Positions 2,805-43,031 of a stretch of 43,031 nucleotides of DNA are shown here, piece by piece. Within the stretch, counting starts at the first letter, position 1; every line of letters begins with the position of its first letter. This DNA is from Mycobacteriales bacterium (GTDB lineage: Bacteria > Actinomycetota > Actinomycetes > DATLTS01). Below the pieces are notes generated by a model. That model was not told the origin of the DNA. It saw nothing but the letters and a program-made list of their open reading frames with translations, and made no database searches. Location of the stretch: positions 1 through 43,031 of the forward strand of contig DATLTS010000056.1 of the NCBI GenBank assembly GCA_035533475.1. The letters run 5' to 3'. The translations under genes were made by a program, and so were the position numbers.

Positions 2805-3557
2805 CTAGGCCCGGGCCGCGACTGCGTCGAGCAACCGGCCGGCCAGCGCCGGTAGGCAGACGAGCAGGTCCGGCAGCCAGGGGTCCGGCTGGTTGTAACG
2901 GAGCGGCGAGCCGTCCAGGCGGCTCGCGTGCAGCCCGGCCGCGCGGGCGACGGCGACCGGCGCGGCCGAGTCCCACTCGTACTGACCGCCGCCGTGCAGG
3001 TAGGCCTCGGCCCGACCCTCGATCACGGCGGCAATCTTCGCGCCGGCCGAGCCCAGCTCGCACAGCTCCGCGCCGAGATCCGCCGCGACGCCGGCCACGA
3101 AGTCCGGCGGGCGGGTGCGGCTGACGACGATCCGGATCGGTGTAGCGGGTGGCGGCGGCGGCGGTGCGGGCGTGCCGGTGGTCAGGGTGCGGGCGACAGC
3201 GGGCAGCGCGAGCGCGCCCGCCACCAGGTCCCCGGCCTGCCAGAGGGCGACGTGCACCGCCCAGTCGGCGCGCCCGGGCTCGCCGAACTCCCGCGTGCCG
3301 TCCAGCGGATCGACGATCCAGACCCGGTCGGCGGCCAGCCGGGAGCGATCGTCACGACCCTCTTCGGACAGGATCGCGTCCCCGGGCCGGGCCCGGGCCA
3401 ACGCCTCGGCAAGGAAGCGGTGCGACGCCTCGTCCCCGGCCCGGCGCAGCTCGGCCGCGGGCAGCGAACCGCCGCGCAGCCGGATCAGCAGCTCGCCGGC
3501 TTCGGTCGCCAGCCGGCCGGCGAGCCGGTGATCGGACTCTTCACGCACTGCGCTCAC
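2805..3557 (-). CDS. cysQ: 3'(2'),5'-bisphosphate nucleotidase / inositol monophosphatase family (CysQ-like)
   Basis: This is a Mg-dependent phosphatase of the inositol monophosphatase superfamily. It carries the metal-binding acidic motif AILSEEGRDD, the signature WIVDPLDGTREF and the late motif YEWDSAAPVAVARAAG. The short length (250 residues) and the sequence around these motifs fit actinobacterial CysQ, which removes phosphate from PAP formed during sulfate assimilation, or acts on inositol phosphates. A frame extending to 3650 is open, but the upstream residues are low-complexity. GTG at 3555-3557 gives a start just before the conserved EESDHRLAGRLA helix, so I chose it. A run of six prolines (APPPPPPA) near the middle is an odd insertion. 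No sulfate genes are adjacent. Confidence 0.85.
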   Translation of the reverse strand: MSAVREESDHRLAGRLATEAGELLIRLRGGSLPAAELRRAGDEASHRFLAEALARARPGDAILSEEGRDDRSRLAADRVWIVDPLDGTREFGEPGRADWAVHVALWQAGDLVAGALALPAVARTLTTGTPAPPPPPPATPIRIVVSRTRPPDFVAGVAADLGAELCELGSAGAKIAAVIEGRAEAYLHGGGQYEWDSAAPVAVARAAGLHASRLDGSPLRYNQPDPWLPDLLVCLPALAGRLLDAVAARA

Positions 3558-10571: not shown

Positions 10572-11615
10572 TCAGCGTGGCCGTCCCGCCCGGTAGATCG
10601 TGTAGCCGGAGGAGGCCCGGTACGGCGGTTCGACGGTCAGGCCGGCTCCGGCGAGCAGCCGGTCGACCTCGGGGGCCGGAATGGCCACCCCGTAGCCTGG
10701 CCCCCCGGCGGCGAGCGAGTCCTGCATGCAGTAGACCAGCGCGCCGGCATACCCGACGACCGATGCCGGATCGGCGGTATCCACGTCGAGGTCACCGCTC
10801 TGCGTGGGCTCGACGACGACCAGCCGGCCGCCGGGACGCATGACCCGCGCGGCTTCGTCCAGGACGGCGGCCGGATCTCCGAAATGGTGCAGCGAGTCGA
10901 GCACCAGGACCAGGTCGTAGCGTCGGGGCCCGGGAAGGGCGCGGACGTCGGCTTCGATCAGGTCGACGTTCGTCACCAGTGCGGCGTCGATCTCCTTGCG
11001 ACCTCGGTCGAACGACTCCCCGTCGATGTCGAACCCGGTGATCCGCGAGCGCGGGAAGGTGCGCCCCACGAGCAGGCAGGCATGCCCGCGGCCGCACCCG
11101 AACTCGGCCACCTCGATGCCGTCCTCGAGTGCCTCGAGCAGGCCCGGGACGCTGGCCAGCCATTCGGGCACGAGCAGCGCGTCGTAGACGGGGGCGTTGA
11201 ACCGCTCGAGCAGGTCCCCGGCCACCTCGTGGAAACGTTCCGGACGGATCCCCGCGCCGGTGCGGATCGCCGTGGCGACGTCCGGCAGCAACTCGGGCAA
11301 CCGCCGAGCGAACTCGAAAACCACCCCGGGGTCCAGGCCGAGCGCCCCGCTGAAGGTCGCCCGGGTTTCCTCGGTCGGCCGGAACCGGCCGCCGCGGTGC
11401 GTGAGGTATCCGGCGGCGGTCATCCCGGACAGCCAGCCCAGGGCACACCGTGCGTCGAGGCCCGCGTGCCGCGCGACCGCCTCCGGGGTGTCCGCGCCGT
11501 CCAGGACGGCGGCCAGGGCGCCGGTCCGCCGACCCAGGTCGACCAGGACTACGGAGTAGTAACCGGCGAGATGGCGCGCGGCGAGCGGCTCGCTGCGGCC
11601 CTCGGGCGGCTCCAT
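10572..11615 (-). CDS. Class I SAM-dependent methyltransferase inserted in the Pup operon
   Basis: The protein has 347 residues. Residues 1-90 look like a winged-helix or dimerisation domain, as in O-methyltransferases (ADTPEAVARHAGLDARCALG, then MTAAGYLTHRGGRFRPTEE). The SAM-binding Rossmann domain begins around residue 165 with VAEFGCGRGHACLLVG (motif I), FDIDGESFDRGR, LVLVLDSLHHFGDP and RPGGRLVVVEPT. The substrate is unknown. It lies on the pup strand, 91 bases before pup and 310 bases after dop, with a repeat-rich spacer before it. It is not a standard member of this operon. A role in proteasome biology should not be assumed. Confidence 0.85.
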   Translation of the reverse strand: MEPPEGRSEPLAARHLAGYYSVVLVDLGRRTGALAAVLDGADTPEAVARHAGLDARCALGWLSGMTAAGYLTHRGGRFRPTEETRATFSGALGLDPGVVFEFARRLPELLPDVATAIRTGAGIRPERFHEVAGDLLERFNAPVYDALLVPEWLASVPGLLEALEDGIEVAEFGCGRGHACLLVGRTFPRSRITGFDIDGESFDRGRKEIDAALVTNVDLIEADVRALPGPRRYDLVLVLDSLHHFGDPAAVLDEAARVMRPGGRLVVVEPTQSGDLDVDTADPASVVGYAGALVYCMQDSLAAGGPGYGVAIPAPEVDRLLAGAGLTVEPPYRASSGYTIYRAGRPR

Positions 11616-13470: not shown

Positions 13471-15198
13471 CTACAGGTACTGCCCGGTGTTCGCCACCGT
13501 GTCGATGGCCCGCCCGGTCTCGTTGCCCTTGCCGGAGATCAAGGTGCGGATGTAGACGATCCGCTCGCCCTTCTTGCCGGAGATCCGCGCCCAGTCGTCC
13601 GGGTTGGTCGTGTTCGGCAGGTCCTCGTTCTCCTTGAACTCGTCGATGCACGCGGCGAGCAGGTGGGCCATGCGCAGGCCCTTCTGGCCCAGCTCGAGGA
13701 AGTCTTTGATCGCCATCTTCTTCGCCCGCGCGACGATGTTCTCGATCATGGCACCGGAGTTGAAGTCCTTGAAGTAGAGGACTTCCTTGTCCCCGTTCGC
13801 GTAGGTGACCTCGAGGAACCGGTTCTCCTCGGTCTCGGTGTACATCCGCTCGACGACCCGCTGGATCATCGCCGCCACGGTGCCCTCGCGGGATCCGCCG
13901 TTCTCGGCCAGGTCCTCCGCGTGCAGCGGCAGCTCCGGAACGATGTACTTCGAGAAGATGTCCCGGGCGGCCTCGGCGTCCGGTCGCTGGATCTTGATCT
14001 TCACGTCCAGCCGGCCCGGGCGGAGGATGGCCGGGTCGATCATGTCCTCGCGGTTCGATGCGCCGATGACGATGACGTTCTCCAGGCCCTCGACCCCGTC
14101 GATCTCGCTGAGCAACTGCGGGACGATGGTGTTCTCGACATCGCTCGAAACGCCGGACCCTCGGGTGCGGAAGATCGAGTCCATCTCGTCGAAGAACACG
14201 ATCACCGGAGTGCCTTCGCTGGCCTTCTCCCGGGCCCGCTGGAAGACCAACCGGATGTGCCGTTCGGTCTCGCCGACGTACTTGTTGAGCAGCTCCGGGC
14301 CCTTGATGTTGAGGAAGTAGGACCGGCCCTCGCCACCGCCGACCGACGCCACCTGCTTGGCGAGGGAGTTGGCGACCGCCTTCGCGATCAGCGTCTTCCC
14401 ACATCCCGGTGGCCCGTACAACAGGATCCCCTTCGGCGGCCGGAGCTGGTGCTCGCGGAACAGGTCGCCGTGCAGGAACGGCAGTTCCACCGCGTCGCGG
14501 ATCTGCTCGATCTGGTCGCGCAGGCCGCCGATCGACTCGTAGTCGATGTCCGGTACCTCTTCGAGGACCAGCTCCTCGACCTCCGACTTCGGGATCCGCT
14601 CGTAGACGTATCCGGACCGGGTCTCGAGAAGCAGGGAGTCGCCCGGGCGCAGCGGACCGTCGAGCAGCGTGTCGGCGAGCATGACGATGCGCTCTTCATC
14701 GGTGTGTCCGACGACGAGCGCCCGGTCGCCGCCCTCGAGCACTTCCTTGAGCTGGACGACCTCGCCGAGCCGCTCGAACTCCAACGCGCGAACGACGTTC
14801 AACGCCTCGTTGAGCATGACCTCCTGACCCTTGCGCAGCTGCGAGACGTCGATCGCCGGGCTCACCGTGACCCGCAACTTCCGGCCGCCGGTGAACACGT
14901 CGACGGTCCCCTCGTCCTGCGCGGTGAGGAAGATGCCGTAGCCGCTCGGCGGCTGGGCCAGCCGGTCGACCTCTTCCTTGAGCGCGACGATCTGGTCCCT
15001 GGCCTCTTTGAGCGCACCGGCCAGCCGATCGTTCTGCCCGACCACCGCCGCGAGGTTCGCCTGTGCGTCGGTGACCCGGTCCTCGAGCGCCTTCGCCGTG
15101 CGCGGCGACTCGGCAAGCTTGCGGCGGAGCAGGGCCACTTCCTCCTCGAGGAAGGTCACCTGGGTCGAGAGGTCGTCGGCGTCGCCCGCAGTCGCCAT
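13471..15198 (-). CDS. arc: Proteasome-associated AAA ATPase Arc/Mpa
   Basis: The 575-residue protein has an N-terminal coiled coil (about 13-82) that binds Pup, two OB-type beta domains (about 85-205) and the AAA module with Walker A GPPGCGKT (262-269) and Walker B FFDEMD (335-340). The C-terminus is GQYL, with the penultimate tyrosine that docks on the alpha ring. It unfolds pupylated proteins into the 20S core. ATG at 15196-15198 has a strong GGAGGAG site on the minus strand. The ferredoxin gene diverges from it across 94 bases. Confidence 0.97.
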
Positions 15199-15280
15199 GC
15201 TGGATCTCCTCCCGCTTGCCCGCAGCCTACCTTCGGCCCAGGGGGACCGGTTCCGAATCGCCGACCGATGCCCGGCTTGT

Positions 15281-15292
15281 TATGGTCAAGCC

Positions 15293-15293
<1 letters not shown>
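15281..15293 (+). promoter_or_regulatory. Candidate leaderless promoter of the ferredoxin gene
   Basis: A -10-like TATGGT (15281-15286) ends six bases before the ATG at 15293, which places the transcription start at or next to the A of the start codon. No Shine-Dalgarno sequence is present. I see no convincing -35. Leaderless mRNAs are common in actinobacteria, so this arrangement is plausible. Confidence 0.4.
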
Positions 15294-16428
<1,135 letters not shown>

Positions 16429-17574
16429 CTACGCCGGGCCGCGGAGCGCGGCGAGCACGTCGGCCTGCGCGAGCACGCCGTAGACCTGACCGCTCGCCTC
16501 GACGACCAGGTACTCGCTGGCCGGCGCCGCCTGGAGCGCGGCCATCAGGTCCTGACCCGAGAGATCCGCCGCGATCCGCAGCTCGGGGGCGATGTGCCGG
16601 GACAGGCTTCCGACGTTGATCCACGGCCGCCGCTCGACCGGGACCGCGGTGACCGACGCCTCCGGGACGATCCCGTCCGGGACCCCGCGGCCGTCGACCA
16701 CGACCAGGGCCCGCGACTGGGTCTCATGCGCCCGCCGGATCGCCTCGGCGAGCGGCAGGTCGGCGGCGACCGGGAGCGCCCGGCGGGTAAGCGTGCGGGC
16801 GACGAGGGACGGCACCACGCTGGAGAGCCGGAGCTGGGCCAGGGACTGGCCGGCGCTCTGCCAGAGGAACATCGCGAGCAGCAGCAGATAGAGGAAGTTC
16901 AACGTGCCGTGCCCCTGCGGGCCGAAGGTGCTGACGACCGCGAAGAAGGCGACCGCGGCGGCGATCCCGCGGCCGGTGTAGGCCGAGACCCGGGTGGCCG
17001 AAAGCTTGCTCTTGAGCCCCCACCACAGGCCGGCGCGGAGCACCCGGCCGCCGTCGAGCGGGAGGCCGGGCAGCAGGTTGAAGACGGCGACCAGCGCGTT
17101 GAGTCGGGCGAGCGCCCAGGCGAGGACCCAGGCGACACTGTGCGCCGGAAGGTTCCGCTCCGTGGCGAAGCCGACCCCGGCGAGCAGCAGCGAGGTCATC
17201 GGCCCGGACACCGCGACCAGGTACTCGATGCCCGGGGTGGGCGCCTCGCCGGTGATCTCGGACAGACCCCCGAGCAGCTGTAGGACGATCCGCCGGACCG
17301 GCAGGCCGAGGGCCCGCGCGACGACCGAGTGGGTCAGCTCGTGCAGCAGGACCGAGCCGTAGAGGGTGAGCACGCAGGCCGTGGTCACCAGGTAGGCCGT
17401 GCCGAGGGTCTGCTGGGGCAGTTGGGCGTGCACGGCCGGCCCGAACAGGTAGACGCCGAGCAACGCCACGACGAACCAGGAGGGGGCGACCACGATCGGG
17501 ATCCCGAGGATCCGGCCCAGGTGCAGGACGTTCGTCGCCCGCCTCGGCGGAGGTGCGGGCGCCGGGGCGGTCAT
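16429..17574 (-). CDS. Membrane zinc metalloprotease M50 (site-2 protease type) with CBS domains
   Basis: The protein has 381 residues from ATG at 17572-17574; the frame continues upstream without a good start. Several membrane segments surround the zinc motif LLHELTHS (HExxH) and the third-ligand motif NLLPGLPLDGGRVL. The C-terminal 130 residues form a CBS pair (PLAEAIRRAHETQSRALVVV ... YLVVEASGQVYGVLAQADVL). This layout matches the Rip3-like intramembrane proteases of actinobacteria, which cut membrane-bound regulators. The substrate is unknown. It is upstream of trmI in one transcript and divergent from the RecB-like nuclease. Confidence 0.9.
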   Translation of the reverse strand: MTAPAPAPPPRRATNVLHLGRILGIPIVVAPSWFVVALLGVYLFGPAVHAQLPQQTLGTAYLVTTACVLTLYGSVLLHELTHSVVARALGLPVRRIVLQLLGGLSEITGEAPTPGIEYLVAVSGPMTSLLLAGVGFATERNLPAHSVAWVLAWALARLNALVAVFNLLPGLPLDGGRVLRAGLWWGLKSKLSATRVSAYTGRGIAAAVAFFAVVSTFGPQGHGTLNFLYLLLLAMFLWQSAGQSLAQLRLSSVVPSLVARTLTRRALPVAADLPLAEAIRRAHETQSRALVVVDGRGVPDGIVPEASVTAVPVERRPWINVGSLSRHIAPELRIAADLSGQDLMAALQAAPASEYLVVEASGQVYGVLAQADVLAALRGPA

Positions 17575-17650
17575 TCCCCGATGGTACGGGCGGACCGCCC
17601 GTCGGCGTGGACCACGGAAATTGTCGGTGCCCGGCCCTAACCTGACCCAC

Positions 17651-18523
17651 ATGACAGCGATCGACGAGGTGCTCCGCCCGGGCGGACCCGGGCGGGTCCT
17701 GTCGCTCTCCCCGTCCCGGGCCAGCGACTTCATGAGCTGCCCCCTGCTCTACCGGTTCCGGGCGATCGACCGTCTGCCGGAGAAGCCGAGCTCGGCGGCC
17801 ACCAGGGGCACTCTCGTCCACACCGTGCTCGAGCGGCTGTTCGAGCTGCCGGCGAGCCAGCGCTCGCCGGAGCAGGCGGCCGCGCTGGTCGAGCCGGCCT
17901 GGGCCGAGCTCCTCGACTCCGAGCCAGAGGTGGCCGACCTGTTCGCCGACAGCCGCGAGCTGCTCGACTGGCTCGGCTCGGCCCGGGAGCTGGTGGCGGC
18001 CTACTTCTCCCTCGAAGACCCGACCCGGCTCGAACCGGCCGCCCGGGAGCAGCTGATCGAGACGACCCTGCCGTCCGGGCTGCGGCTGCGCGGTTTCGTC
18101 GACCGGCTGGACGAGGCGTCCACCGGGGCGCTGCGGATCGTCGACTACAAGACCGGCCGCGCGCCGGATCCGATGTTCGAAGCGCGGGCGCTGTTCCAGA
18201 TGAAGTTCTACGCCCTGGTCATCTGGCGGACCCGGGGGGTGGTGCCCGCGGTGCTCCAGCTCATGTATCTCGGGGACCGGGAGGTGCTGCGGTACAGCCC
18301 CGACGAGGTGGAGCTGCTGGCGACCGAGCGGAAGCTCGAGGCGTTGTGGGCGGCGATCGGCAGATCGATCGAGAAGGGCGAGTTCCGGGCCAGCCCGAGC
18401 CGGCTCTGCGACTGGTGCGACCACCAGGCGCTCTGCCCGGCTTGGGGCGGGACCGCGCCGCCGATGCCGGCGCTGGCCGAACAGCGAGTGGAGGAGGAGC
18501 CGGCCGTCGCCGTGGACGTCTGA
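17651..18523 (+). CDS. RecB-family PD-(D/E)XK nuclease with probable Fe-S cluster
   Basis: The protein has 290 residues. Nuclease motifs occur in order: GTLVHTVLERLF (His), RGFVDRLD (Asp) and LRIVDYKTGRAP (D-x-K core). One cysteine near the start (MSCPLLYRF) and three at the end (LCDWCDHQALCPAW) match the four-cysteine iron-sulfur clasp seen in AddB and Cas4-type nucleases. No helicase motor is attached and no cas genes are near, so it is the stand-alone actinobacterial RecB-like protein of unknown DNA substrate. ATG at 17651 has no ribosome site. TAACCT (17638-17643) seven bases upstream suggests a leaderless transcript. Confidence 0.9.
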   Translation: MTAIDEVLRPGGPGRVLSLSPSRASDFMSCPLLYRFRAIDRLPEKPSSAATRGTLVHTVLERLFELPASQRSPEQAAALVEPAWAELLDSEPEVADLFADSRELLDWLGSARELVAAYFSLEDPTRLEPAAREQLIETTLPSGLRLRGFVDRLDEASTGALRIVDYKTGRAPDPMFEARALFQMKFYALVIWRTRGVVPAVLQLMYLGDREVLRYSPDEVELLATERKLEALWAAIGRSIEKGEFRASPSRLCDWCDHQALCPAWGGTAPPMPALAEQRVEEEPAVAVDV

Positions 18524-38057: not shown

Positions 38058-38141
38058 GTCGGAGTGGCGGAATAGGCAGACGCGCATGGTTGAGGGCCAT
38101 GTGCCCGCAAGGGCATGGGGGTTCAAGTCCCCCCTCCGACA
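38058..38141 (+). tRNA. tRNA-Leu, anticodon GAG
   Basis: This is an 84-base class II tRNA. The acceptor GTCGGAG pairs with CTCCGAC. The anticodon stem CATGG/CCATG encloses loop TTGAGGG with anticodon GAG at 38092-38094. A long variable arm (TGCCCGCAAGGGCA) follows, and the T-arm is GGGGG-TTCAAGT-CCCCC. CCA is not encoded. An integrase lies downstream, so the 3' half is a likely attachment site. Confidence 0.97.
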
Positions 38142-38144
38142 CGA

Positions 38145-38159
38145 TCTTGACCCTCAAGA
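38145..38159 (+). terminator. Hairpin TCTTGA-CCC-TCAAGA after the tRNA
   Basis: A perfect six-pair inverted repeat with a three-base loop sits four bases past the tRNA end. A T-rich stretch (CCTTATTCTT) follows. This suits a tRNA terminator. The nonamer CGATCTTGA at its left side recurs at 38240-38248. Confidence 0.5.
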
Positions 38160-38207
38160 GTCCTTATTCTTCAGGGGATTTTCGTCAGAGTCGCCTCACA
38201 TGATCTC

Positions 38208-38279
38208 GCCAGGGGGGTTTATCGGGGGGTCTATGTGTTCGATCTTGATTCAGTGACGCGGCCAGGGGGGTCTATTTCG
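38208..38279 (+). repeat. Three G-tract motifs (GGGGGGT-(C/T)-TAT)
   Basis: GCCAGGGGGGTTTATC (38208-38223), ATCGGGGGGTCTATGTG (38221-38237) and GCCAGGGGGGTCTATTTCG (about 38261-38279) share a six-G core followed by T-N-TAT. They lie between the tRNA and the end of the HTH-repeat gene. Related motifs in opposite orientation occur at 40498-40528. Confidence 0.6.
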
Positions 38280-38322
38280 CGCGGTTCTCGACCCGCGGGA
38301 TGAGCGGCGAACGGCCCCGCGA

Positions 38323-40176
38323 CTAAGGGTTTCCGGCTGTGTGCACGGGGTCGCCCGGTGCGGCAGCAGTGACCGCCTCGGCCGGGTACGGCGGACTGCT
38401 CGGTAGCTCGCCGAGAAGACGCCGACGCCAGGGACTGGCACCAGCGTTGCGGCGCGGCTTGAGACCTGCGGCACGCAGGGCATCGAGGATCTGCTCGTGG
38501 GGTTGGCCGGTCAGCAACTCGATGTGGCGGGCGGACAGGCCGAGCTCGTCGTAGAGCTCGCCCAGCAGCCGTTCCCCCAGCGGCACTGGAACGGGGAACC
38601 GCTCGGCGATGGTACCGGGTTGTGGCCGCTGCGGAACGCCAGACCGGGCGAGCGCGTCGGTGATCTGCCGGTCGTCATACAGCTCGTCGAGCAGCTGAAT
38701 CGTCGCGTGGTGGCGCCGGCGCGTGCGCACCGGGATACCGTGGTCGTGCATCGCTCGCAGCACCTTCGGCAAGGCCGCGCCGAGGTACTCGGCGACTTCT
38801 CGGCCGCTGAGCCCGTGCGCCCAGTACAGGTCCTGCAGGGTCTCGGCCGGCAGGTCCGCTCGGCTGGCCCGGCTGGTGCGCGGCGTGATCGGGACCTTAG
38901 CGGCCAACAGCCAACCTCGGACGATCGGGACGCTGGTGTGGAACCGCTGGGCGAGCTGGGCGAGGGTGCGGCCGTGCTTGAGGTACAGCGTGTGAAGGGT
39001 TGCATCGGGTGGTGCCGCTGGAGGCGGAGGATGCGGCGGAGGCACGGCCGGCCGGTGAATGGCGTGGCGACGCAACGCGATCGTGACTGCGTGTTCGGGT
39101 ACCTGGTGAGCGCTGGCAATCTTGCTCCGCGCCCAGCGTTGCTCGACGTAGAGCTGGCGCAGTGTGGCCGGGTCGAGCGGCGAGGGCGACCGCGGGCTCG
39201 GCTGGTGCAGCGGATCGCCGTGGTCCACGAGGGCCTGGCGGACCAGCCCGGTCGCGTGGCGGGTGTGCCGGGCGATGTCCGCGACGCTGCGACGCTCGCT
39301 CACATAGAGCTGCTCGAGCAGCTCGCGGGTCAGCGGCAGCGGCTCGGGGCGGTCCGGGCGAGTGCCGCGGGGTCGAGGCTGGATGCCGTGACGGTGTAGG
39401 CCGGCGGCGATGCGGCTTACGCTGCAGCCCAGTTGGGCCGCGACCTGCGCCCGAGTGAGCCGTTGCCGGCAGTAGAGCTCCTCCAACAGCTCCCGCGTCA
39501 GCGACGCCAGCCGCGGGTCCGGCTGGCGCGGCGCGCGTCGGTGTGGAACACCGAACCGGTGCAGCAGCTCTCGAACCGTGGCCTGATTGCAGCCCGCCCG
39601 CGCCGCGATTTCTGGCACCGTCAGCCCCTGCTCGACGTGCCACTCGGTCAGCACCTCCGCCGTCAAGCCCAGTCTCGATCGTTGCGGCGGCAGGATCGAT
39701 AACCCGCCACGGACCATGCGCAGCTTGACCTGGTCGACCGAGAGCCCCATCCGTCGGGCTACCTCGACCAGGGGCAGCCGCTGCTGGTGGTGCAGCTCAC
39801 GCAGCGTGTCGACCAGCCCCGGATCGGGTACGACAGGACGACTACCGGCGAACCGGCGCGCTGGTATGCCGTGGCGCGCCAGCAGCCCCGCCACCCCCGA
39901 GGCGCTGAAGCGGATTCGTGCGGCGATCTGGGCGCAACTCAACCCCTCGTCCACGTACCAGCGGCGCAGCGTCGCCGCATCAACCGGCACCTCCTTGTTC
40001 GCACCCGCCGGACGCAGCGGGATGCTCGCCGCCCTCAGCGCATCGCGGACATACTGGGACGACCGGCCGACCTCGGCCGCGATCCAGCCGGCGCTGCGCC
40101 GCTCCTCGACGTACCAGCGGGCGAGCAGCGCCGGATCCAGCGCCGCCAACCGGGGGTAGATGAGCCGGCTCGCCAT
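38323..40176 (-). CDS. Protein built of eleven tandem helix-turn-helix-like modules
   Basis: The 617-residue protein is almost all one repeated unit of about 44 residues joined by 8-12 residue linkers. Modules begin near residues 13, 65, 118, 171, 226, 282, 334, 390, 442, 493 and 533, a mean step near 53. The unit reads L-x3-L-x2-LY-x4-(R/G)-(L/S)-x3-(I/V)A-x5-S-x3-V-x3-L-x2-HGIP-x-R. Examples are ATLRRWYVDEGLSCAQIAAR and ELLEELYCRQRLTRAQVAAQ. The pattern fits a three-helix homeodomain or resolvase-type HTH. The module at 493 lacks its second half. Linkers are Pro/Arg-rich and the protein is basic. There is no nuclease, ATPase or membrane part. ATG at 40174-40176 has only a weak ribosome site. 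I know no described function. Sequence-specific binding along a long DNA site is inference. Confidence 0.85.
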   Translation of the reverse strand: MASRLIYPRLAALDPALLARWYVEERRSAGWIAAEVGRSSQYVRDALRAASIPLRPAGANKEVPVDAATLRRWYVDEGLSCAQIAARIRFSASGVAGLLARHGIPARRFAGSRPVVPDPGLVDTLRELHHQQRLPLVEVARRMGLSVDQVKLRMVRGGLSILPPQRSRLGLTAEVLTEWHVEQGLTVPEIAARAGCNQATVRELLHRFGVPHRRAPRQPDPRLASLTRELLEELYCRQRLTRAQVAAQLGCSVSRIAAGLHRHGIQPRPRGTRPDRPEPLPLTRELLEQLYVSERRSVADIARHTRHATGLVRQALVDHGDPLHQPSPRSPSPLDPATLRQLYVEQRWARSKIASAHQVPEHAVTIALRRHAIHRPAVPPPHPPPPAAPPDATLHTLYLKHGRTLAQLAQRFHTSVPIVRGWLLAAKVPITPRTSRASRADLPAETLQDLYWAHGLSGREVAEYLGAALPKVLRAMHDHGIPVRTRRRHHATIQLLDELYDDRQITDALARSGVPQRPQPGTIAERFPVPVPLGERLLGELYDELGLSARHIELLTGQPHEQILDALRAAGLKPRRNAGASPWRRRLLGELPSSPPYPAEAVTAAAPGDPVHTAGNP

Positions 40177-40497
40177 GGGCCCGGTCCGCTACCGCCCCGC
40201 CATCGCCGACACCGGTTCGTCAGGCCGGGTCGAATCGGCGAAGCCACTGTCAACGTCCGGGACCGCGCGTAGTGTGCTCACCGTCGCGGCCCGGCAGCGG
40301 GGCCCGGCAGCCCCGCCGGCCGTGGTTTTGCGCGGGGTGGGCCGAGTGGACACGTCGTCGTTTCCTGTCGGTAGGTGTGCACGCCCTCACCTTCGAGCGT
40401 CGGTCACCGACGATCCTCGCGACCCGGACACGATGAGGCAAGGGCTGTGGCCGCATGTCACGAAAGCGCGGGGCTCTCCGTCTGTGCACTGCTGAGC

Positions 40498-40528
40498 CAT
40501 ACGCCCCCGAGGCCATACCCCCCGAGCT
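40498..40528 (-). repeat. Two C-tract motifs, inverse of those beside the tRNA
   Basis: CCATACGCCCCCGAGG (40498-40513) and CCATACCCCCCGAGCT (40513-40528) are a near-identical pair. On the minus strand they read CTCGGGGG-(C)G-TATGG and CTCGGGGGGTATGG, close to TCGGGGGGTCTATG at 38222-38235. They lie upstream of the HTH-repeat gene. Confidence 0.5.
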
Positions 40529-40678
40529 ATAGGCCGCCGACGCCGAGGGAGATGATTCCCACCCGTTGATCGTCTCCGGATGCGACGAGCGCGATCTCTT
40601 GCCCTGCCCAACGACCGCGGTTCAGAGCCAGCGACAGACAATCGCTTTGCAGACCGCCGAACTGATCCGCGACTGACG

Positions 40679-40700
40679 CCCGGGTCAGACGAGACCCGGG
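40679..40700 (-). terminator. GC-rich hairpin downstream of the integrase gene
   Basis: CCCGGGTC (40679-40686) and GACCCGGG (40693-40700) form a perfect eight-pair stem with a six-base loop (AGACGA). There is no T tract on the integrase strand. It lies about 165 bases past the integrase stop and could end its transcript. A protein-binding site is an alternative. Confidence 0.5.
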
Positions 40701-40863
40701 GGTCCCACGCTCGCTTTGCAAGTCGGCATGCTGAGCGCCACATGACAGTACTGATCATCCGGGCACGGACACGCGTGCAGCATCGGCAAAACGCGGACAG
40801 AGCATTGCCGGGCCGCAAGGCGCCGCTCTGCACAGCGAGCGGCCGGCGCTGACCACGGGGACG

Positions 40864-42255
40864 TCAGTCGCGACCGGCGGCTGGGCGTCGCCGTGACCGG
40901 GCAGGGCGAGGTGAGCCGCGCTCACGCCGCTCGGCTGCGTCGCCGCCCTCACCGACGACTCGTCGCTGAGGCTTCGTCGACGCTGCTGCGGTGTCGGGTG
41001 CCGCATTCTCGGGCGGCCCGAGGACGAGTTCGGTCATCATCGCGGCTGCCCGGGCAGCCCGTTCCTTGTGGACGTGCGAGTAGATGGTCCGAGTTATGAC
41101 GACGCTGTCGTGGCCGAGGATCTCGGCGACGACCTGCTCATCGATGCCGGCGAAGATCATGCTCGTCGCAGTCGAGTGCCGGGCATCATGTAGCCGGATC
41201 TCCGGTAGGACGGAGTCGGGATGCGCCTTGTTGTAGGCGACAATCATCCTGCGGAAGCTCCTGGACAGGCGCTCCGGATGCAACGGTCCACCCGCCTTGT
41301 GTTCGGGGTGACGCACACCATCGTGAACGAATACGTACCCGGTGTCTTGCCACCCATCGGCCGCGATCGCGGCTTCACGTTCGGCTTCCCAGCGGCGACG
41401 ATGATCCTTCATGATCTCGACGAGGAACGAGTCGAGCGGGATGAGGCGGCCTTGGCCTTGGCCCTTGGTGGTCTCCCGCTCGATGACCCGGCCGGCGTGG
41501 GCAGTGCGATTGCGAATCAGGTGGATTGTGCCGTGCTCGAGATCGACCTCGGGCCAGCGAACGCCGAGCAGCTCGCCGCGTCGAGAGCCGCGGGTGAAGT
41601 ACAGCCAGTACAGGGCGATGAGCCGATGGGCCTTGTAGTGCTGCAGGAAGGCGAGGATCTGCTCCGGCTCCCAGACGTTGTAGCGGCCCCGGTCGGCGCG
41701 GGCAGGTGTGCGTGGAAGGTCATCCTTGTTGATCTGCGAGCACGGGTTCGCCTGCCGTAGCGGCGGGTTGCGGGTGATCGCATCACGGAAGCAAGCTCGC
41801 AGGATGGCGTGTATGTAGGCGACGGTGCGCTGCGACAGCTTGCCATTGCCGCCAGGGCTGCCGTGCCCGAGGAGCTCATCGTAGAGCTCGCTGAGGTGCC
41901 GGGCGTTGACCTGCTGTATCCGCAGCTGACCTAGCTGCGGCCGGATGTGCAGCCGGATGTTCTTCCGGTAGGACTCGAAGGTGGTTTCGCTCATCGTGCC
42001 GAGACGTACTCGGCGCTGGATAACGTTCTCCCACTCGTTGAGCCATTCGCCGACGGTGACTCGGCTCGGGGCGAGGATTTTCCCCTCGTTGTTGTCCGCG
42101 GTCTTCAGCAGGTCACGCAGCCAGCGGGTGGCCGCCGCCTGGCTGGAGAAGCCCTTCCTGCGATGTCGCCGCCCGTCGACGGTGATCTCGGCCGTGTAGG
42201 TGCCGGAGGCCGGGTCCTGGTAGGTGGTGCCCTCGCCCTTGCTGCGTCGAGCCAT
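40864..42255 (-). CDS. int: Tyrosine recombinase / phage-type integrase
   Basis: The 463-residue protein has an N-terminal AP2-like arm-binding domain (GTYTAEITVDGRRHRRKGFSS), a core-binding SAM-like domain (about 65-165) and the catalytic domain (about 195-400). Active-site residues are visible: R225 in RGSRRGELLG, K264 in ETTKGQGQGR, H356 and R359 in LHDARHST, H382 in ILGHDS and Y392 in TIYSHV. A 60-residue Arg/Ala-rich tail follows and is dispensable in relatives. It faces the tRNA-Leu gene, as integrases of actinobacterial integrative elements do. ATG at 42253-42255. The excisionase gene lies 67 bases upstream on the same strand. Confidence 0.95.
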   Translation of the reverse strand: MARRSKGEGTTYQDPASGTYTAEITVDGRRHRRKGFSSQAAATRWLRDLLKTADNNEGKILAPSRVTVGEWLNEWENVIQRRVRLGTMSETTFESYRKNIRLHIRPQLGQLRIQQVNARHLSELYDELLGHGSPGGNGKLSQRTVAYIHAILRACFRDAITRNPPLRQANPCSQINKDDLPRTPARADRGRYNVWEPEQILAFLQHYKAHRLIALYWLYFTRGSRRGELLGVRWPEVDLEHGTIHLIRNRTAHAGRVIERETTKGQGQGRLIPLDSFLVEIMKDHRRRWEAEREAAIAADGWQDTGYVFVHDGVRHPEHKAGGPLHPERLSRSFRRMIVAYNKAHPDSVLPEIRLHDARHSTATSMIFAGIDEQVVAEILGHDSVVITRTIYSHVHKERAARAAAMMTELVLGPPENAAPDTAAASTKPQRRVVGEGGDAAERRERGSPRPARSRRRPAAGRD

Positions 42256-42322
42256 GTGAACCGTCCCCGGGGAGATCGTGCGGCGACAGCGGCGTGCCGC
42301 CGGCCGCCTCTTTATGATCCGC

Positions 42323-42514
42323 TCAGCGTCCGCCAGCGTTTCGGGTTATCCACAGCCTCAGATCGGCGGAAGTGAACCTGAGTTCGCGCCCGAGCTTGAT
42401 CGCGCGGAGCTCGTGGCGGTGTCGGTACACCCAGTCCTTACTCATCCGCAGCACTTGGGCGACCTCGTCGACGGTCAGCAGCGGCTCCACGCCGGCCGAC
42501 TGGGCCGTGGTCAT
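42323..42514 (-). CDS. Excisionase-like helix-turn-helix protein
   Basis: The 63-residue protein is a MerR/Xis-type winged HTH: LLTVDEVAQVLRMSKDWVYR is the recognition helix segment, followed by LRAIKLGRELRFTSADLRLW. Such proteins direct excision with the neighbouring integrase or repress its operon. ATG at 42512-42514 is preceded by GAGAGACACGCC. A longer upstream frame is Arg/Pro-rich and was not used. Confidence 0.9.
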   Translation of the reverse strand: MTTAQSAGVEPLLTVDEVAQVLRMSKDWVYRHRHELRAIKLGRELRFTSADLRLWITRNAGGR

Positions 42515-42524
42515 GGCGTGTCTC

Positions 42525-42791
42525 TCATGAAGATCCGACCCGGTGCGACGGGCGCAGGCCTGGCGACGCGCATCCGTCGGGTTCGGTGGCGCCGATCTCG
42601 GCTGCGATCGCGGTGAAAGCCGCGGCAAGGTCGGCCGCTGACGTGTGGTTGAGACGCTCAAGGAGGTCGGCAATCCCGGCCGGTGTCAGCTCGGCCCCGT
42701 TCACAAGGGCTTGCGCGAGGGCTTCGAGGGCCCGCTCCCCTCGCGCTGTGAACGTGATCGCCACGTCATCCGAGAGGCGGGTCGTGGTCAT
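42525..42791 (-). CDS. Small unknown protein of the integrase operon
   Basis: The 88-residue protein is of unknown family. The first 65 residues form amphipathic helices (GERALEALAQALVNGAEL, GIADLLERLNHTSAADLAAA) that could pack as a small helical bundle. The tail is Pro/Gly/Ser-rich. ATG overlaps the stop of the next gene upstream by four bases (ATGA) and the excisionase follows about ten bases on, so the genes are co-translated. Role unknown. Confidence 0.7.
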   Translation of the reverse strand: MTTTRLSDDVAITFTARGERALEALAQALVNGAELTPAGIADLLERLNHTSAADLAAAFTAIAAEIGATEPDGCASPGLRPSHRVGSS

Positions 42792-43031
42792 GACGCTTCA
42801 CTGACGTCGTGGCCAGCGATGCGTGCAGCGGCATCACGGACACGGTTGGCGTCGAAACGGACAACGTCCAAGGGACGATGGCCGTCAAGCGCCGGGTTGG
42901 TGGCGCGCAGCCACAGCAGCGTGTCGTTACCGGAGAGGTGCCGGTCGGCTTCGGCGACGGTGTCGCGCAGCGTGGTGAGCATGGTGTAGGCGCGGGGGCT
43001 GACGTGGCGGGTGCCGCTTCGCCATTCGCAG
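42788..43031 (-). CDS. MbcA/ParS-like (DUF2384-type) protein, 5' end outside window
   Basis: The frame is open to the right edge and ends at 42788. Its last 80 residues include AEADRHLSGNDTLLWLRATN, then PALDGHRPLDVVRFDANRV. The W-L-x-x-x-N-P-A-L-x-G-x-x-P-L-D-V pattern is that of the C-terminal toxin-binding domain of Xre/MbcA/ParS antitoxins. A RES-type toxin partner would be expected beside it but is not within the window. It could instead be an element regulator that uses this domain. Confidence 0.65.
   Translation of the reverse strand, partial: CEWRSGTRHVSPRAYTMLTTLRDTVAEADRHLSGNDTLLWLRATNPALDGHRPLDVVRFDANRVRDAAARIAGHDVSEAS

Follow-up and report, generated by a model that had tools for sequence, protein, structure and literature searches.

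What does a single protein built of many helix-turn-helix (HTH) units do beside the integrase of a mobile element? The window analysed here, a 43,031-nucleotide stretch that makes up the whole of contig C56 of a Mycobacteriales genome (3.27 Mb in 68 contigs), encodes such a protein of 617 residues, P0001, from an ATG start on the minus strand (positions 38323-40176). A chance open reading frame was ruled out by the G+C content at the three codon positions (0.78/0.53/0.83, coding-like) and by matches to an HMM of the modules.

The array gene and its modules

P0001 consists of ten full tri-helical HTH modules and one shortened unit, with steps of 52-56 residues between modules. On the minus strand of the window, module 1 occupies residues 14-57 (40006-40137), module 2 residues 66-109 (39850-39981), module 3 residues 121-164 (39685-39816), module 4 residues 172-215 (39532-39663), module 5 residues 227-270 (39367-39498), module 6 residues 283-326 (39199-39330), module 7 residues 335-378 (39043-39174), module 8 residues 390-433 (38878-39009) and module 9 residues 443-486 (38719-38850); all were delimited with the module HMM, and modules 3, 8 and 9 also by comparison with the relative P0005. 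They are followed by the short unit (residues about 492-518; 38623-38703), which has helices 1 and 3 without helix 2, by the final full module (residues 534-577; 38446-38577) with the motif HIELLTGQP, and by a C-terminal tail of ~40 residues. The short unit and the final module, defined by the module HMM and the relatives, are the signature of the family.

The preliminary description had reported ten full units and a shortened one at a steady step, and this periodicity was confirmed. In searches of the single sequence P0001, leave-one-out HMMs built from the remaining modules recovered each of the ten full modules (E 1e-4 to 7e-18), and the self-similarity peak at offset 55 exceeded that of 300 out of 300 shuffles. 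Identity between modules averages about 24-27%. The shortened unit, as judged from the sequences of relatives, is a conserved feature of the array family and not a product of decay. Pfam matched P0001 to HTH_23 (E=1e-13), HTH_28 and Sigma70_r4. The Pfam and NCBIfam searches gave no other domain, all of the matches listed falling within HTH modules, so the earlier statement that there is no other domain stands for the library matches but overlooks the tail after the last module.

Predicted structure of P0001

AlphaFold2, run without an alignment, modelled all full modules but module 7 as three helices, nine out of ten, which bears out the expectation of repeated HTH folds; module 7 was predicted poorly, with just two helices of low confidence, and the short unit was likewise given two. 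The pLDDT was about 70-80 across modules 1-6, and the pTM of the whole chain was 0.20. A two-module model with the other P0001 modules as alignment rows reached a pLDDT of 75 and a pTM of 0.40. A beta wing was sought, and no strands were found in either the single-chain or the two-module model, both of moderate confidence. The fair confidence of these predictions thus applies to the single HTH folds and not to the placing of the modules relative to one another.

The solved chains that best match P0001 are mostly HTH proteins. Foldseek placed Cbp1 (2lvs) first, with E 0.04, and a Foldseek search with the full P0001 model gave no match at E < 0.1. A profile search of the PDB found Cbp1 2lvs at E=3e-6, and also chain 8vd6, named 'CAP REPEAT', which matches one helix-turn-helix stretch (E 8e-7). 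VIA-align returned single-HTH matches only (Z 5-7), a common arrangement.

The integrative element around the array gene

The hallmarks of a tyrosine-integrase element inserted at a tRNA gene are present: an integrase, an excisionase-like gene and a duplicated tRNA 3' end. The integration target is a tRNA-Leu(GAG) gene found by tRNA search (38058-38142, plus strand), the last 29 bases of which (38114-38142, plus strand; the att core of attL) recur exactly at C54:10980-11008 in the same genome. Three arm-like sites with the sequence GGGGGT(C/T)TAT lie just right of the core in the window (at 38213, 38225 and 38266, spanning 38213-38275, plus strand) and two just left of the C54 core (at 10848 and 10860); a motif count found no further copy in the window, C54:1-20000 or C58:1-20000. 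From the two core copies and the attL/attR layout of the arm sites, we conclude that the element starts at 38143, leaves C56 at its right end and, after a middle part that is not seen, ends at C54:10979. G+C content is 68.6% over 38143-43031 versus 71.6% over 1-38000.

The array gene lies between attL and the integrase gene. The two are separated by 687 bp (40177-40863) with no convincing gene, and are followed by the excisionase-like gene. The integrase (463 aa; 40864-42255, minus strand) matches Phage_integrase and SAM_3, in agreement with the adjacency noted previously, at a distance of about 690 bp, and the excisionase-like protein (63 aa; 42323-42514, minus strand) matches HTH_17. No relaxase was seen in the window. 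The C-terminal part of an Xre/MbcA/ParS antitoxin domain (42788-43030) runs off the contig end. On C54 (L026; 2673-2751 and 2769-5632), within the far end of the element, a canonical fluoride riboswitch stands directly 5' of an acetyl-CoA synthetase gene, which is followed by a SatP-like acetate transporter gene. Right of the C54 core, at 13689-17958, three tandem XerC/D-like recombinases, together with a further integrase and part of a TrwC-type helicase, may belong to an adjacent element.

The array family

Relatives of P0001 were recovered by a genome scan with three sequences, after an earlier scan with a narrow pattern had given none. A short unit followed by a final HTH module with an xELLTG-like motif is common to P0001, P0003, P0005, the short form P0006 and the arrays of loci L041, L034 and L068. 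On these sequence features, P0001 belongs to an undescribed, sporadic actinobacterial family with the architecture of n HTH modules, a short unit and a final HTH module. No close match to P0001 outside its own genome was found among 394 members of its class. In IMG/VR, no relative came up in scans for P0001, the integrase or a pattern of the tail, and tblastn in plasmids and phages gave short generic module matches only. In a genome of the same class, two loci (L006 and L010) encode proteins of ~250 aa with several weaker HTH units and without the family tail, which are another set of short HTH arrays.

The relative P0005 is a 668-aa array from an Actinobacteria MAG (L039), where an excisionase-like gene, an integrase gene and the array gene stand in a row in the same xis-int-array order as in the window, with 39 bp between integrase and array. 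P0001 and P0005 are collinear without rearrangement, at 39.8% identity over 593 residues. With only 30% identity between the integrases of the two cassettes, the arrays could have travelled independently; the recurrence of the linkage with integrases this different suggests that the function of the array is tied to the element. Within the genome of P0001 itself, P0003 on contig C58 is 37% identical to it over 197 residues and shares the short unit and the final module. A 307-aa array lies near enolase in a Streptosporangiaceae MAG (L040), and a genome of the same phylum (G625) has two array copies. A search among kin of L039, L040 and others yielded a further pair of long arrays, of 629 and 565 aa, together with some ten short-form orthologues.

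Ahead of the short unit and final module, the short form has three modules, P0001 nine, the L039 array ten (the first weak) and the L068 array seven, plus one further weak module. The L067 array has nine full modules with the short unit in mid-chain and then a final-like module; the order of its units is what a fusion of two short-type arrays might give. The genes next to the long arrays also vary. In a Nitriliruptoraceae MAG (G729, L041), 222 bp separate an N-terminally cut array from the TrwC relaxase gene downstream of it. In L067 (1664-6005), an AEP-TOTE primase-helicase gene precedes the array by 38 bp, and a Fic gene is the next neighbour; no integrase was seen beside either. These two neighbourhoods would fit a factor for transfer, replication or partition that marks the oriT or origin of mobile elements, but the two best cases are linked to an integrase and not to a relaxase, and we consider such a role quite improbable.

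Conservation of the recognition helices

If each module reads DNA, its recognition helix should be conserved in its own right. In ten pairs of orthologous modules of P0001 and P0005, the exposed recognition-helix positions are 31% identical, versus 14% in non-orthologous modules (20,000 permutations, p 1e-4), with the exposed columns chosen from general knowledge of the HTH fold and not from a P0001 structure. The exposed positions of helix 1 (16 versus 18%) and helix 2 (20 versus 18%) show no such excess. The signal rests mainly on modules 8, 9 and 11; restricted to the first seven modules, the test gave p 0.06. Ten short-form orthologues (44-76% identical) point the same way: conservation is 0.66 at recognition-exposed positions, 0.72 at DNA-facing positions, 0.67 in linkers and 0.75 in the core, but only 0.36 at exposed helix-1 positions (p 0.001). 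Each short-form module has its own conserved helix, e.g. DRQRV, PQRTVRDRL and SRQIVLRAAHDEG.

Modules that each contact bases of their own would be expected to show this pattern of sequence conservation. As the recognition helix of each module is separately conserved in relatives, the array probably reads one long fixed DNA sequence. The preliminary description had offered long modular reading as one of several options and had called the modules old and selected. The collinearity with P0005 and the retention of recognition residues position by position uphold the age and selection, and the same retention favours the modular reading. The recognition-helix face may also serve another role, e.g. 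protein contact. The chain of many basic HTHs might alternatively coat DNA with little sequence preference, as a nucleoid protein or filament does, and RdfS, BldC and Xis do form HTH filaments on DNA (PMC11963761). A non-specific coat, however, would not need recognition helices that differ among modules yet are kept at each position, which makes this alternative improbable.

The short form and fluoride riboswitches

As a chromosomal gene, the short form (three modules plus tail) is conserved within gene clusters that carry fluoride riboswitches, with one copy, P0003, in this genome. Contig C58 (L005) has fluoride riboswitches at 10653-10716 (minus strand) and 3146-3207 (plus strand), one of them directly 5' of the P0003 gene, which is near enolase; P0003 itself probably begins at the ATG near residue 28 of the listed frame. 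Other short forms have hyf-like hydrogenase, UspA, pyrophosphatase and SatP genes as neighbours, together with RF01734 riboswitches. Enolase, pyrophosphatase and formate hydrogen lyase genes are tied to the fluoride riboswitch (PMC11139923).

The setting of the short forms gives rise to the main rival explanation, that the long array is a captured chromosomal regulator, kin of the fluoride-cluster gene, which acts on host or cargo genes and has no role in mobility. Also in its favour are the acetyl-CoA synthetase and satP genes behind a fluoride riboswitch at the far end of the element. On the other hand, neither the window nor the surroundings of the other long arrays examined showed a fluoride riboswitch at gathering score, and the array follows the integrase directly in two distinct cassettes; we regard this explanation as rather unlikely.

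A 50-bp conserved block upstream of the short-form genes was considered as an operator and rejected: alignment and model searches showed its likeness to the fluoride aptamer, and it was therefore not counted in favour of a site bound by a protein. A conserved leader, CGGCGGAGGGGCTCGCCGT...CGCCAACGGTCCCT, is fluoride-aptamer-like with changed pocket bases (AUG to GAG, UGAUG to CAACG). Copies occur in L040 (3311-3381), L071 (7615-7683), L072 (7887-7959 and 8941-9012), L073 (7977-8046), L076 (7602, 4571 and 1508), L055 (1159 and 2232) and L057 (2403 and 1318). An Rfam search at E=1 found no fluoride match for the leaders in L055, L057 and L074, and a model built from nine leaders matches canonical fluoride riboswitches too, weakly. 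By its sequence, the leader is a candidate variant riboswitch.

Comparison with known tandem HTH proteins

The closest known protein is Cbp1 of Sulfolobales (2lvs, NF040595), which is among the leading named matches of P0001 in the Foldseek, PDB profile and NCBIfam searches; P0001 scores 34.3 bits against NF040595, below the curated cutoff of 140 bits. Both proteins carry tandem tri-helical HTHs on one chain. Cbp1 reads one asymmetric site along its length, its three HTHs following one another 5' to 3' on a single CRISPR repeat (PMC10883916), and P0001 would read its site in a like way. Cbp1 differs in being archaeal, in its three modules and about 135 aa, and in lacking both the short-unit tail and a link to an integrase. 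With this precedent, the earlier claim that no system of this form has been described was too strong. Also counting against it are HNH endonucleases from haloarchaeal viruses and from phages (phrog_8446, phrog_7545, HJTV-4 ORF23), in which up to four modules of the same type stand in a row.

These endonucleases differ from P0001 by their HNH nuclease, fewer modules and the lack of the family tail. The PHROG HNH families score best (E 2e-45) and HJTV-4 ORF23 combines four such HTHs with an HNH domain, as if P0001 were the DNA-targeting part of a homing endonuclease that has lost its nuclease. Yet the Pfam matches listed for P0001 include no HNH domain, the PHROG HNH profiles align through the HTH part only, no family member seen has a nuclease domain, and HJTV-4 ORF23 lacks the short unit and the tail motif; the likeness is that of a generic module, and we consider this origin highly improbable. 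The phage profiles phrog_323 ('D5-like' regulators) and phrog_12058 (768 aa, unknown), with several such HTHs each, likewise share only the generic module, and PADLOC gave no whole-length defence family for P0001, only a short generic HTH match to mad1.

RdfS, Xis and BldC bind head-to-tail with about one HTH per 10 bp, and elements of this kind also encode recombination directionality factors (RDFs). RdfS, Xis and BldC are separate subunits with a beta wing, whereas the units of P0001 are covalently joined and predicted, with moderate confidence, to be all-helical, and the element in the window has an excisionase-like gene besides the array. TAL effectors would have linear modular DNA reading in common with P0001 if our inference is right. 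Their 34-residue two-helix repeats with an RVD code have an unrelated fold; the units of P0001 are of 52-56 residues and three helices.

Proposed function

RDFs bind att and promoter DNA in extended arrays, with about 10 bp per HTH (PMC11963761). Given this precedent, that of Cbp1 and the integrase linkage, we favour P0001 as a single-chain, sequence-specific DNA binder that serves as a regulator of the element or as an accessory recombination factor, a reading to which we give about an even chance. We infer DNA binding, the length of the site and the role in the element, the role being moderately supported. Each tri-helical module would insert its own recognition helix into successive major grooves, with the Pro/Arg linkers probably running across the minor groove. 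RdfS and BldC take about 10 bp per HTH unit; on this measure, a single asymmetric site read by ten modules would be roughly 80-110 bp long. In the integrative element, the long form is the third gene of an xis-int-array cassette, and its product most likely binds element DNA, either the att region or the promoter of the integrase or array gene; it would govern integrase expression or excision in the manner of oligomeric RDFs such as RdfS, except that its units form one chain. The chromosomal place of the short form and the long arrays beside TrwC relaxase and AEP-TOTE genes speak against this reading. A search for a candidate site gave none, the intergenic stretches sharing no conserved block with L039 or the other loci. 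More tentatively, the array may be a modular reader in which each HTH recognizes its own sub-sequence and the order of units equals that of the sub-sites, so that a unique ~100-bp address controls integration or excision of the element, while the shorter sister serves the chromosomal fluoride response.

No entry describing the array family was found in Pfam, NCBIfam, PHROG, PADLOC or the PDB, where the matches are generic HTH or Cbp1-like, and no description was found in the open-access literature; the length of the array and the family itself appear undescribed in the libraries searched. The tandem-HTH DNA binder is a known type, and what stands out here is the length, the linkage to an element and the separately conserved modules. 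Bacterial HTH regulators mostly gain specificity by binding short sites as dimers or oligomers. If true, a chain of ten HTHs that act independently, each with a recognition helix conserved in its own right, would be a bacterial counterpart of zinc-finger and TAL arrays, and the natural series of module numbers, from three plus tail to ten plus tail, is one from which a code could be learned. The undescribed gene family would also be connected both with integrative elements and with the fluoride response.
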